Positions 53,290 to 62,549 of a DNA stretch of 64,000 nucleotides are shown here, piece by piece (position 1 is the stretch's first letter; every line of letters begins with the position of its first letter). Below the pieces are notes generated by a model. The model was not told the DNA's origin. It was given only the letters and a program-made list of their open reading frames with translations, and searched no databases. A program made the position numbers and the translations under genes. Source of the stretch: Protonemura montana (Eukaryota; Arthropoda; Insecta; Plecoptera; Nemouridae); NCBI GenBank assembly GCA_947568835.1, contig OX387605.1, forward strand, positions 17,674,418-17,738,417, given 5' to 3'.

Positions 53290-55670
53290 GTGTTACCAGT
53301 AAAAATCATTTTTAAGTTAAATGAAGATCCGATGATATTAAAAGTATTCTTATTTCCTATAAAAAATGTCAATGCAAGATCCACAAAACAAATCTGAAGG
53401 TTAACCTAATTGATCACAGACGGTATTCAGATTTTTAGGGATTTTTACCATGGCAATATCACATTTACCTCTAAATAAATGGAAATAACAGAAAGCATTT
53501 TTTTTTACATCACTAGCATCACCTTAAGCAAACTGTGCTTTAGCCCAAAAATTTAATTCCATAAAGCACGAAAATCCAACAAAAAACAAAAATTGTAAAA
53601 TTTGACTGACTCTAATTTCATAAAAATATTTTATTTGTGCTAGTCGACGCGCCGCCATTTTGGCGTATTCAAAATCCACATTATAAATCTAGTGGGAAAG
53701 TCCCGATATTTAAATGTTTCCCCTGGAGAGCGGCGTCTCGGGCCAGCGTGAAACCATCCCTCATCTCTCTCCCTGCCCTTCCAACCCCAACCCGGGTACA
53801 ACCGAAGCTAGCGGCCGAAGCGGACGACACAAACCAAAATTATGCAATATATTTTCATTCTGTCTTGTTTGCCAGACCTTTTGTGTGCTATAGCGAGACC
53901 GATGACAAAAGCACTCGGACTGATGTTTGTGCAGTAAAAATAGCTCTTTGCTGCTTGAGATTTGTTTACTATATCAAGAAAAAAAAAAGATAGATTATAT
54001 TTCCCTCTCAAGGTCAATATCTTTAATTATGTTTATTTTATTAATAAAAATACTCTTAAGGCATCGTGATAACATAAGTAAGAACGACTTTCCATATTTC
54101 ACAAAATCAACCCTAAGAACAGAATAAATTTGTCTACAGAAAACTTCTTGGCAATAACCCACGCATCCACATCTTCGATAAAAGTGTTATGTCAAAGTAA
54201 AAAAGGCAAACACAGTGTTTAATTTTATTATCTGACACTTTTGTGTAGCTTGCCCGGTGCTACCTTTCGATCTTGACTCCCGGGCACTTTTCGCCGTGTG
54301 GTCCTTCCACTCTCCGTCGTCTGGCTCGAATGCAGAGGACATTTTTATTCTAGGTTGATTCATGTAACAGCCCTTTCGCCTTCTACTAACTTCCTCTTAT
54401 CTCATAATTCGCTTGACATGCGGCTCCAAACCAGAACATCGCCGAGAAATATGATACTTTGCACCCTATCGCTGGAATTTTACCACCCCCGTTCACCCAC
54501 CCACTTCCTTGCTATCGCCGCTCAGTTCCTTGGCCCCCTCCCTACCCACCCGTAACTCGTTAAAATGGAAATATCATTGCGTATTATTTAAATGTAATAT
54601 GCATCGTTGGTATGGTGATGACGAGAGTATTGAAAGAATTGTCTAGACGTCTCACGAATCGTGCTATTTTTTTTTCATTTTAGGCATATGCGTATAGAAA
54701 CTTGATGACAAGATATCATTTTCAGCTGAAAGAAAAATTCATTTTGGCAACCACTTTCATAGAAATATGTTAAGAAAACCTTCACGTCAAGAATAACGAA
54801 TTAAATGAGAATGTATGTTCATTTTTTACTTACAAATAGAAGGGCTTTTCGTGTGAGTAACTAGTTTGCAAACAGACATACCTGAAACAACAGGAGAATA
54901 AAATTAGTATAGTTCCGGTAGGATAAGGAGGTAAATTTTTACTCAACCTTGAGGTTCCGCCTCTTTTGTGGCCAACCTGTAGGGAAGTCATTCTCAGTTA
55001 GTATAAATGGAGCCGGACGAACGCCGTATCACAGTTGATCATATTCGAATGCCTCATGCCACTGAGTTTGTAGGGATAGTCCCCTTTTACACATTTTCGA
55101 CCAACTCATAAGCAATAAGTAATAAGCTAAAGCGTGCTAAAGCCTTAAAAATTGAATATGTGAAGATTTCTAGTGACAGCTCGCAACCTAGCTGCAAACA
55201 GCTGTTATGTTGGCAATTCTGTAATGGCTGCCGAACGAGAGAAAAAATAACAGAAAGAGTAAAAAAACAATTTTGATTAACAACAAATCAGTAAATATGT
55301 AAATAATTATTAACAAAACTATAAAACACTGTTTTCCAACGCTTTCAAATGTAAGCAACAGTAATTTTTTTTTTGAAGTAATTATTTCTCAAAACTTTTT
55401 TTTTTTTTTTTTTGCTTATTGGCAACATAATTTACCAACTTAAGTATAAGGCGAGTTTTTTACTATGTCAACAACCCATTTCTACTAACTAAAAAAGTGT
55501 GTTTTTTTTTTCAATTCTAAAGTTTAATAGTATACAAATATAGTTGATCAACTTCCTTGAACGATAATACTTCATATATATATGGTTCCTCCATCGACGA
55601 GCTTCAAATTGTCACAATTTCTATGCACTCAATTTTATTTCTTTAAAACTAAATTCTAGCCAACCGCAAA
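53290..55670. other. No recognised gene; promoter-like spot at 55.0 kb
   Basis: GC patches at 53640-53830 and 54240-54560 are open on plus (53637-53993 and 54298-54555) but unrecognised. The region ends in T-rich runs, including 18 T at 55396-55413, shortly before the tandem array. Confidence 0.5.
55002..55037 (+). promoter_or_regulatory. TATA plus initiator-like pair
   Basis: TATAAATG at 55002 is followed 29 bp later by ATCACAGTTG (55028-55037), resembling an arthropod initiator. A 20-codon frame starts at an ATG at 55050 (MPHATEFVGIVPF) and stops at 55112. No gene body is identified. Confidence 0.15.
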
Positions 55671-55675
55671 GGAAG

Positions 55676-57327
55676 CATGTACACATTGTCTCAATATTTT
55701 ATCTCAAGTCCTAGTGAGATGTATCCAGCATGTACACATTGTCTCAATATTTTATCTCAAGTCCTAGTGAGATGTATCCAGCATGTACACATTGTCTCAA
55801 TATTTTATCTCAAGTCCTAGTGAGATGTATCCAGCATGTACACATTGTCTCAATATTTTATCTCAAGTCCTAGTGAGATGTATCCAGCATGTACACATTG
55901 TCTCAATATTTTATCTCAAGTCCTAGTGAGATGTATCCAGCATGTGCACATTGTCTCAATATTTTATCTCAAGTCCTAGTGAGATGTATCCAGCATGTGC
56001 ACATTGTCTCAATATTTTATCTCAAGTCCTAGTGAGATGTATCCAGCATGTGCACATTGTCTCAATATTTTATCTCAAGTCCTAGTGAGATGTATCCAGC
56101 ATGTACACATTGTCTCAATATTTTATCTCAAGTCCTAGTGAGATGTATCCAGCATGTGCACATTGTCTCAATATTTTATCTCAAGTCCTAGTGAGATGTA
56201 TCCAGCATGTGCACATTGTCTCAATATTTTATCTCAAGTCCTAGTGAGATGTATCCAGCATGTGCACATTGTCTCAATATTTTATCTCAAGTCCTAGTGA
56301 GATGTATCCAGCATGTACACATTGTCTCAATATTTTATCTCAAGTCCTAGTGAGATGTATCCAGCATGTGCACATTGTCTCAATATTTTATCTCAAGTCC
56401 TAGTGAGATGTATCCAGCATGTACACATTGTCTCAATATTTTATCTCAAGTCCTAGTGAGATGTATCCAGCATGTGCACATTGTCTCAATATTTTATCTC
56501 AAGTCCTAGTGAGATGTATCCAGCATGTACACATTGTCTCAATATTTTATCTCAAGTCCTAGTGAGATGTATCCAGCATGTGCACATTGTCTCAATATTT
56601 TATCTCAAGTCCTAGTGAGATGTATCCAGCATGTACACATTGTCTCAATATTTTATCTCAAGTCCTAGTGAGATGTATCCAGCATGTACACATTGTCTCA
56701 ATATTTTATCTCAAGTCCTAGTGAGATGTATCCAGCATGTACACATTGTCTCAATATTTTATCTCAAGTCCTAGTGAGATGTATCCAGCATGTGCACATT
56801 GTCTCAATATTTTATCTCAAGTCCTAGTGAGATGTATCCAGCATGTGCACATTGTCTCAATATTTTATCTCAAGTCCTAGTGAGATGTATCCAGCATGTG
56901 CACATTGTCTCAATATTTTATCTCAAGTCCTAGTGAGATGTATCCAGCATGTGCACATTGTCTCAATATTTTGTCTCAAGTCCTAGTGAGATGTATCCAG
57001 CATGTGCACATTGTCTCAATATTTTATCTCAAGTCCTAGTGAGATGTATCCAGCATGTACACATTGTCTCAATATTTTATCTCAAGTCCTAGTGAGATGT
57101 ATCCAGCATGTACACATTGTCTCAATATTTTATCTCAAGTCCTAGTGAGATGTATCCAGCATGTACACATTGTCTCAATATGTTATCTCAAGTCCTAGTG
57201 AGATGTATCCAGCATGTACACATTGTCTCAATATTTTATCTCAAGTCCTAGTGAGATGTATCCAGCATGTACACATTGTCTCAATATTTTATCTCAAGTC
57301 CTAGTGAGATGTATCCAGCATGTGCAC
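55676..57327. repeat. 53-bp tandem array, 31 copies plus 9 bp
   Basis: Thirty-one full units of exactly 53 bp run head to tail from 55676 to 57318 with no indels, followed by a 9-bp partial unit. Each unit begins CATGTRCACATTGTCTC and ends GATGTATCCAG. Only three sites vary: R at unit position 6, one A-to-G at 56973 and one T-to-G at 57182. Each unit contains ATCTCA-AGTCCTAG-TGAGAT, a 6-bp stem with an 8-nt loop. In G units ATGTGCACAT is a perfect 10-bp palindrome, which A units lack. The unit length is not a multiple of three and all frames soon stop, so it does not encode a repeat protein. The near-identity implies recent expansion or homogenisation, or an assembly product. Confidence 0.97.
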
Positions 57328-57363: not shown

Positions 57364-57409
57364 GCATCATTCTGGGCATCGCGGCGTCGACGTCGACGCA
57401 GAATGATGC
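57364..57409. repeat. Inverted repeat around a 16-bp palindrome
   Basis: GCATCATTCTG (57364-57374) and CAGAATGATGC (57399-57409) are perfect 11-bp inverted arms. Between and overlapping them is GCGTCGACGTCGACGC (57384-57399), a perfect 16-bp palindrome. The structure begins 37 bp after the tandem array ends. Confidence 0.8.
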
Positions 57410-57419
57410 CCTAGGGACG

Positions 57420-60400
57420 CGACCTCTAGCGCACTCTTATTCACATACCTACAGATGCAGTTACCTCATATGGGACATACAAGAGCAAACCTCTCCGGGA
57501 ATTTCCTCTATTCCTATATTAGCTCACATCAAATATTATTGTCGCTATACTTGAAAAGAAGTATGCTCGTATACCATTACGTTGGCGGAGCATTTAAATT
57601 TTACGAATATTTTTAGTGTTTATGCGATTCAAGAAATATTTCATTACAGCATGACCTAATTATATCCTTTGTTGTTGCTACAGAAGTATGCTGTTTGAAA
57701 ATCCCTGGTTGTAGACCCTCCTCTTGGTACATGTGCAGAAAAACTAGGGAAATTCAAGAGCAATGTGCATTTTCGAGGAAATAACTAACGGAAAATTATT
57801 GGAAGGTATGAAAATCTAAAATTTTTTTTAATTACTAACACGTTTCTTTCCAATTTGTTGTCTTGTTAAAAGGTTTTCTGTGATCTGATCAATTTCAGGG
57901 CTCTGTCATTCCCCCCCCCCCCCCCCCCCCCCCTTTCACAGCAACGAACGGAAAACTCTCTTGTCTTTCATGTAGATCATACATTAAACATTCATGATTC
58001 ATTACACCGAGATGCCGTACAAATCGAATGCTCTAAGCGTATTGAATGCAATGCCAGATGAAAGGAGCTTCTTAAGGAATTCATTTTCAGGAGGTCGTAA
58101 CTCACCGAAGCAGCAGCCGCCGTTGCTGCCTCGTCTCCTGAAATGTGTTTCTTTCCTCTCACTAGCTCCACTATTGAGCTCATCTATAAAACATATCGCA
58201 ACACGAAGCAAATGAGTTGTATTTGAGATCGAGACGGTACTTGGCACTTAAAGACGGCACTGTTAACGAGACAATAAAAGAATACGCGTTACAAGAAGAT
58301 ATAAAGATCTATATCCGCTTAGTTGAATGAATTATGTACAATTTAATCTATTTGTTTGTGCCGTGTAGTTCCCCATACGGAGGAAATTAAAGAGCGGTGA
58401 CGCTGTTCAGGATTCAGGACTCGTTTCGTGGCTGCATATAAGGACGCTACACATGAGCACCTAGAGATGATTATACTCTTGCTATAAAGGTGGAAAGTTG
58501 ATGTCATTAAAAGCAGATTTTCCCTAATGCAAGCTTTACATATATGATATTGCAGAGGAACAGGTAATGAGCACAGCAATTTTGCGTTGCAGGAATATCG
58601 AGAGGGTTTCTTTTAGATGGCCGGCTACGAGCATTATGTAAATATCGGGTATCTTCCATCTGGAATTATCGTATCAGGGAGTAATAGTGAAATGGGTCGA
58701 GTGGTATTAAGGGTGATGGGCGGTTTCTTACAATGATACATGGTATCGATTTGAACGGAAACCACCGTTTATCACTGTCATTCGAAAAGCATCTTTTTCA
58801 ATCGTGATTGGCCTGCTTTTGACGCAAAGTCGATTTCAATACGTATGATTTTTTTTTCAAATTGATATTATATGATCATGGTATATCGATTACTGCATAA
58901 ACATAGTCTCTATCAATGTCAGGGTAGGTGAAGCAAACATAACCATGATTAATAGAAATCTGACAGAGCTAAATAATCCGCTATATTGATGTTGGCTTAT
59001 TTACAATTTTTCACATGACAAAAGTAAAATCGAAGATAAATAATTCGTAAGTTAATCATTTGTGTTTGTATTCTTTGAGAAGCTAGAAAAACCGACACGA
59101 CCGAAGTTTTAAGTTCTAATTTACTACAAAGACGGAAATAAAAATTCTCGCCGTCGCTCATCCTGAAAGAATAAAGGAAAATCTCTCTTTTATTTTGTGC
59201 ACATCAAATACCCTTTTGTACAAGATGACAAAAACTTTGTTGAACCAAATGCGAAATTACGCGCAAATGAAAAGTACCCGAGAGCACTGGCATGCACTCA
59301 GACCACGTGTTATCTGTATGCAAATGTGCAGCCTTTCAGCCCCAACTCTAGCCACCCTCGAGTGTGTGTGTATTTCCTCTAAATGAACCCTTCTCAACGG
59401 AATATAACGACAACATCTGTTTATAATCTGTCATGTTGGCACACGTATTGTTCTCTGCTAAATAAACTGTTATTTCACCGAGCGATTTTCATTTCAACCA
59501 CCCGAAAAGTTATTACTAGAAACGTGACGTCACGAAATATTTTCCAAACAAAAGTGTAGTTGCAGGGAAATGCTTAAATAATGTCTGTGCCATGTTTAAT
59601 TTATAAATCTGGCAATCGCGGTCAGCCTTATGTTATAATGACCGTCACTACACAATGTTCTGAGTGAAGGATGCTTCGAGGAAAGCGTGTTTAGTGGAAA
59701 ATCGAGTCCTATGGGTGTGTGTGTTTGTGTGCAGGGACCGAGGTGTGTGTGACAAACTTATATCGTTTCCATGTGTCGAACAACTTGAGCACTAATTAAT
59801 TTATGTTCCCTAACAACAACGCTGCACTGGCTTAATTAGCTATGGATCAAATGCACTCGAGCACGCTTCGAGGCTTGATTATATATAAATAAACGCGCAT
59901 AATATGCTTTTACTAATTTCTAATTAGCCAAGATAATGCTATTTTATGAATTATAAAGTCCAGTATTTTTCTTTGTCGAAATTGCTTATGAAAATATAAT
60001 GCAACTTACCATGTAACCAACACTCGTGGGTAAAAAGTAGCAAAGAAGCTTGCAGTTTGCATGCATTTTACCACGTTACAGTGACATTGTGCACCCATGC
60101 TAAGGAGGTCAAATTATTCATAGACTGTTAATTTCAAACCACACAGATTAGTGCTGTCTTCAACCCCTATTATTCTTCTTATGAAGCGTAAACGCAAGCA
60201 TGTGTAATGGTACCTATGAGGATCGTAAATGCATTTTTATCTTACAATACGTAAAAATAAATGTAGTAGGTATTAATAATAGGTGATCTTCCATATTATA
60301 TGGTGTGTTTTCGTTACAACGTTGTAAAAGTTAACGTTCCAAGCGTAATCCAGTTTTGCTAGTCTTATCGGGAAGTTTCCGTGTGAAAGCATGTAGTTCC

Positions 60401-62336: not shown

Positions 62337-62385
62337 CACCTAGCACCTAGTTCCTAGTTCCTAGTTCCTAGTTCCTAGCACCTAG
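62337..62385. repeat. 7-bp tandem repeat, seven copies
   Basis: CACCTAG and TTCCTAG units follow each other in the order CAC, CAC, TTC four times, CAC. The array abuts the next 17-bp array without spacer. Confidence 0.95.
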
Positions 62386-62549
62386 TAATGTAGTCATGTA
62401 AGTAATGTAGCCATGTGGGTAATGTAGTCATGTAAGTAATGTAGTCATGTAAGTAATGTAGTCATGTAAGTAATGTAGTCATGTAAGTAATGTAGCCATG
62501 TAAGTAATGTAGCCATGTAAGTAATGTAAGTAAGTAATGTAGTTGTGAA
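62386..62549. repeat. 17-bp tandem repeat, about 9.5 copies
   Basis: TAATGTAGTCATGTAAG repeats with exact 17-bp spacing from 62386 to 62521. Variants carry GCC for GTC (copies 2, 7 and 8) and GGG for AAG (copy 2). Copy 9 lacks 4 bp and copy 10 is partial. Confidence 0.95.

Follow-up and report, generated by a model that had tools for sequence, protein, structure and literature searches.

A near-uniform 53-bp tandem array in the stonefly Protonemura montana, very likely a single-locus minisatellite

The 53-bp tandem array at positions 55674-57327 of the window is very likely an ordinary single-locus minisatellite that grew by slippage or unequal exchange and was homogenised by multi-unit exchange or conversion in which the register of the units was kept. 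The window is the whole stretch of DNA that was analysed, 64,000 bases long (C3:17674418-17738417), and it comes from an assembly that totals 258,480,905 bases over 34 contigs, some of which are perhaps scaffolds. Minisatellites are tandem arrays with units of about 10-100 bp. With 31.2 copies of a 53-bp unit and a total length of 1654 bp (TRF: period 53, 0% indels, score 3189), the array falls within this size class, and it is probably a VNTR. In one passage of a published account, minisatellite arrays are given a span of 0.5 kb to several kb (PMC2820488). The array resembles minisatellites and VNTRs in the lengths of its unit and of the whole array, in its head-to-tail order, in having variant units interspersed among the others, and in its restriction to a single locus; short direct repeats at its edges are a further likeness, though a partial end unit would also produce them. 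It differs from them in that it is not rich in GC (a hand count of the A-type unit gives 19 of 53 bases) and in being known here from one assembly. Its DNA is apparently non-coding, whether intergenic or intronic.

Uniformity of the array

The coordinates of the array and of the features discussed with it are collected in Table 1. TRF and unit-by-unit comparison bear out the preliminary description of 31 near-identical 53-bp units with zero indels, and likewise its count of two private substitutions and one two-state site. Its limits for the array were exact apart from a start placed 2 bp late, the true left edge being 55674. The two-state site is A or G at unit position 8 and separates 16 plain A-type units from 13 plain G-type units in the unit-by-unit comparison. 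The 25th unit (start 56946) is G-type with a private A>G substitution, and the 29th (start 57158) is A-type with a private T>G substitution. Along the array, the two states follow the order AAAAAGGGAGGGAGAGAGAAAGGGGGAAAAA, with G in the partial unit at the right. When the region of this partial unit is scored as a 32nd unit, 32 mismatches result. Mean pairwise divergence between the units is 0.0121 (1.2%), without indels. With up to three mismatches allowed, a 22-mer taken from the unit finds 31 matches in the window as compared to a mean of 0.01 over 100 shuffles, which excludes a chance origin of the array.

Table 1. Features of the 53-bp array and uniform tandem arrays elsewhere in the assembly
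Feature	Position	Description	Basis
Full 53-bp units	55674..57316	31 units, head to tail, no indels	TRF and unit-by-unit comparison
Partial unit	57317..57327	11 bp, AGCATGTGCAC, G state, closes the array	Sequence; unit-by-unit comparison
Left-edge repeat	55674..55684	First 11 bp of the array, AGCATGTACAC, A state; imperfect direct repeat of 57317-57327	Sequence
Inverted repeat in the unit	55701..55720	ATCTCA / TGAGAT, 8-nt loop (first unit)	Sequence
GC-rich stem-loop	57374..57411	Outside the array, 46 bp past its end	RNA and DNA folding
98 bp x 63	L032:1-6202	Divergence 0.0049; 13 inserted or deleted bases; starts at the contig's first base	
73 bp x 51	L034:4490-8186	Divergence 0.0291; no indels	
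105 bp x 52	L035:1-5418	Divergence 0.0123; no indels; starts at the contig's first base	
89 bp x 31	L035:7200-10000	Divergence 0.0119; one inserted or deleted base; runs past the end of its locus	

The homogeneity of the array was compared with that of other TRF arrays having a period of at least 20, at least five copies, and a consensus length equal to the period. The sample comprised the window and 18 of 20 loci, the mitochondrial contig (L037) and the repeat contig C20 (L038) being excluded, and it yielded 11 other array rows, some of which overlap (those of L033). Four of these rows, with 31-63 units, show mean pairwise divergences of 0.5-2.9%, two of them without indels. The remaining seven range from 0.018 to 0.29 and include a 32-bp array with 40 units and a divergence of 0.29. 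The preliminary description had held that an array of this length should be far more decayed; the four uniform rows speak against this expectation, though all of them sit within the first 10 kb of their contigs, perhaps near chromosome ends. The presence of four comparably uniform arrays indicates that the 53-bp array is not exceptional for this genome. The contig-start arrays of C1, C3, and C4 resemble it in their similar or larger number of units, similar divergence, and few or no indels, whereas their units and arrays are longer, their sequences are different, and the 53-bp array lies deep inside its contig. Two other interior arrays were measured (24 bp x 22.6, divergence 0.074; 20 bp x 5.3, divergence 0.28). 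Both are more decayed, and the 53-bp array is the cleanest among the three interior arrays measured.

Several further repeats were observed. No TTAGG run is present in the first 150 bases of C1, C3, C4, and C5, and C2 begins with N. The first 10 kb of contig C20 (16,879 bases) consist mostly of nested 35-bp repeats that build longer units of 94, 129, 164, and 223 bp. Within the window, TRF reports a pair of short tandem repeats side by side at 62337-62543, one with units of 7 or 21 bp and the other with units of 17 bp, 5 kb beyond the right edge of the array.

The array is unlikely to be an assembly artefact; the probability is small that its copy number was collapsed or expanded, or that polishing smoothed one unit across the copies. 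Near-identical arrays are prone to miscounted copy number, and homopolymers of 18 T (55396-55413) and 23 C (57911-57933) lie within 600 bases of the array edges. However, 1.65 kb is short relative to long reads, and neither the mosaic of two states nor the private variants would survive smoothing. The assembly of 258 Mb into only 34 contigs suggests that long reads were used. The mitochondrial genome (contig C34, 15,885 bases) begins with tRNA-Phe, and starting the mitochondrial contig there is a habit of long-read pipelines. Its cytochrome oxidase and, over the first 10 kb, its order of tRNA genes resemble those of insects.

A separate observation concerns contig C4 (25.9 Mb), which contains cytochrome oxidase stretches at C4:5760925-5762262 (L026) and C4:5776811-5777755 (L028). 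The distance between their starts, 15,886 bases, exceeds the length of the mitochondrial contig by one, and identity to C34 (L027) is 99.84% over 4338 bases for the first surrounding locus and 99.88% over 2434 bases for the second. A recent insertion of more than one genome length of mitochondrial DNA may explain these stretches, as may a misjoin.

Turnover and birth of the array

The order of A and G units points to exchange of blocks of several units. The mosaic comprises 13 runs, with six separate G blocks, as compared to 16.3 runs expected by shuffling (p = 0.15). An origin of the six G blocks by independent mutations is unlikely, because only two other substitutions were seen; the probability that at least six of eight independent substitutions fall at one named site of 53 is 1.2e-9. 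Mosaic formation was simulated in a toy model with one starting mutation and a bounded array length, in which the states recorded in one trial depend on each other. Duplication and deletion of single units gave at most 3 runs, and 13 runs were reached in 0 of 1443 recorded states. When blocks of up to 2, 3, 5, or 8 units were allowed, 13 runs occurred in 3%, 21%, 62%, and 83% of recorded states, respectively. Because single-unit duplication and deletion cannot add blocks from one mutation, we infer that segments of several units were moved by unequal exchange or conversion. Exchange or gene conversion of such segments, out of register yet preserving the 53-bp phase of the units, could account for both growth and homogenisation of the array, and the recent amplification or strong homogenisation suggested in the preliminary description fits the data. 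The two private substitutions date the array to ~4e5 generations (5e4-1.5e6) on a star tree, a value that is good to an order of magnitude at best and assumes a rate of 3e-9 per base that does not come from this species. Five A units stand at each end of the array (p = 0.00045 by shuffling), a pattern noticed post hoc. It counts against the reading preferred here, which does not specifically predict it.

Production of the whole array in one step, by a rolling-circle or similar burst, is very unlikely. Such a burst would explain the near identity of the units and the lack of indels, but it predicts either a single unit type or a strict higher-order period. None of the eight lags tested for such a period is strong: the best, lag 2, shows agreement in 19 of 29 comparisons (p = 0.05), and agreement at lag 5 (6 of 26) lies below that of the shuffles.

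For the minisatellite reading, the edges of the array suggest how it may have begun. The array could have been born when one copy, flanked on both sides by the imperfect 11-bp direct repeat AGCATGTRCAC, underwent slippage or unequal exchange between the two repeats. The repeat carries A at the left edge and G at the right edge, as would be expected under birth between imperfect repeats; a break point placed at random would leave the same arrangement. Under such a birth, the two states of the variable site may date back to the origin of the array. Derivation of minisatellites from short direct repeats is a published model, given in a passage of PMC2820488 that cites Haber and Louis 1998.

Foldable sequence occurs both within the unit and beside the array (Table 1). 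Dimers of the unit fold weakly to moderately, with z values of -0.96, -1.73, -1.43, and -3.37 in four folds. The stem-loop to the right of the array has a z of -2.01 as RNA, with 7 of 200 shuffles folding equally well, and in a scan of DNA folding over 60-base sites of the window it is the fourth most stable, with a rounded value equal to that of the fifth. In a test for hairpins at array edges, the right edge of the 53-bp array gave p = 0.014 and the left edge p = 0.91, and two other edges gave p = 0.005 and 0.047. Over 19 edges together, p = 0.17; hairpins at array edges are thus unsupported as a general cause, and a link between hairpins and arrays is not established in this genome. The stem-loop at 57374-57411 may be involved in array growth or may be unrelated to it. 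For the sugar-beet minisatellite BvMSat05, a passage of PMC2820488 describes palindromic sequence beside the array that is proposed to promote slippage. As described there, BvMSat05 resembles the 53-bp array in having a palindrome within tens of bp; it differs in being a family of arrays, whereas the 53-bp array is one locus, in a genome where the hairpin link is non-significant over 19 edges.

Neighbouring genes and possible function

No molecular function is required to explain the array. Judged by sequence similarity, it lies between a putative dpr-like immunoglobulin gene and a putative sina-like gene. Among solved structures, the dpr-like frame finds Drosophila Dpr6 (E 7e-15) and Dpr10 (4.5e-12); it has no Pfam match and lies on the minus strand ~3 kb left of the window, at a distance of ~59 kb from the array. 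Two frames farther left give weak immunoglobulin matches under the Pfam cut-offs, and beyond these lie carboxylesterase frames over the Pfam cut-off. The sina-like frame, ~54 kb right of the array, has a RING finger just over and a zinc finger just under the Pfam cut-offs. No gene adjoining the array was recognised among four window frames compared with Pfam and the long frames inspected by eye, a search that small exons may escape. The four nearby window reading frames tested have no match in Pfam, and the window has none in Rfam at the gathering threshold. The array may be intergenic, or the dpr-like gene may hold it in a 5' intron. A protein-coding repeat was rejected, since none of the six frames of the repeated unit is free of stops; its plus frames run into a double stop every three units.

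It is highly improbable that the array is kept uniform by a cis-acting role, exerted through candidate GATA-like sites on the dpr-like cell-recognition gene nearby. AGATAA, which we take to be a GATA-type motif, is found on the minus strand in 30 of the 31 units at a spacing of 53 bp, a distance of about five helical turns. If this cis-regulatory reading were true, unit number could tune expression of the dpr-like gene. The preliminary description had also remarked that three units, at 159 bp, approach nucleosome scale. This idea finds no support in the periods of other arrays (24, 73, 89, 98, and 105 bp), a comparison that concerns periods alone.

Confinement to one locus

A 26-mer from the unit was searched against the whole assembly with up to three mismatches. 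All 31 of 31 matches fall inside the array and on one strand, and the reversed control gives 0. The array therefore occupies a single locus, the alternative raised in the preliminary description being a dispersed satellite, and it shows the confinement of a minisatellite, with one locus and no megabase arrays. Dispersed or centromeric satellite DNA was rejected because the whole assembly holds one 1.65-kb locus. In a DNA search that skips very common words, a 271-base query of the left flank plus the first 17 array bases matches only itself, as does a 244-base query of the right flank plus the partial unit. Since the unit and both flanks are unique in these searches, the array does not belong to a dispersed satellite, and no membership of a transposon family is evident.

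Some Helitron-related elements carry their own tandem repeats. The most improbable of the readings considered is that the array belongs to a transposable element or dispersed satellite that brought its own repeats: the GC-rich stem-loop followed by a nearby CTAG, 46 bp past the array, bears a superficial likeness to a Helitron 3' end, but the flanks that such an element would share among many copies are, like the unit, found in one place only, the DNA search skipping very common words. A loose pattern drawn from the stem-loop side gives six matches with at most one mismatch, where ~6 are expected by hand estimate. Two of these are exact, where 0.1 is expected, one being the array locus itself and the other lying on contig C1; the reversed control gives 0.

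Near-perfect arrays recur in this genome, and uniformity alone is thus no sign of an artefact or of a special function. The 53-bp array provides a clean single-locus marker, and its map of A and G units could be used to track minisatellite turnover between individuals.
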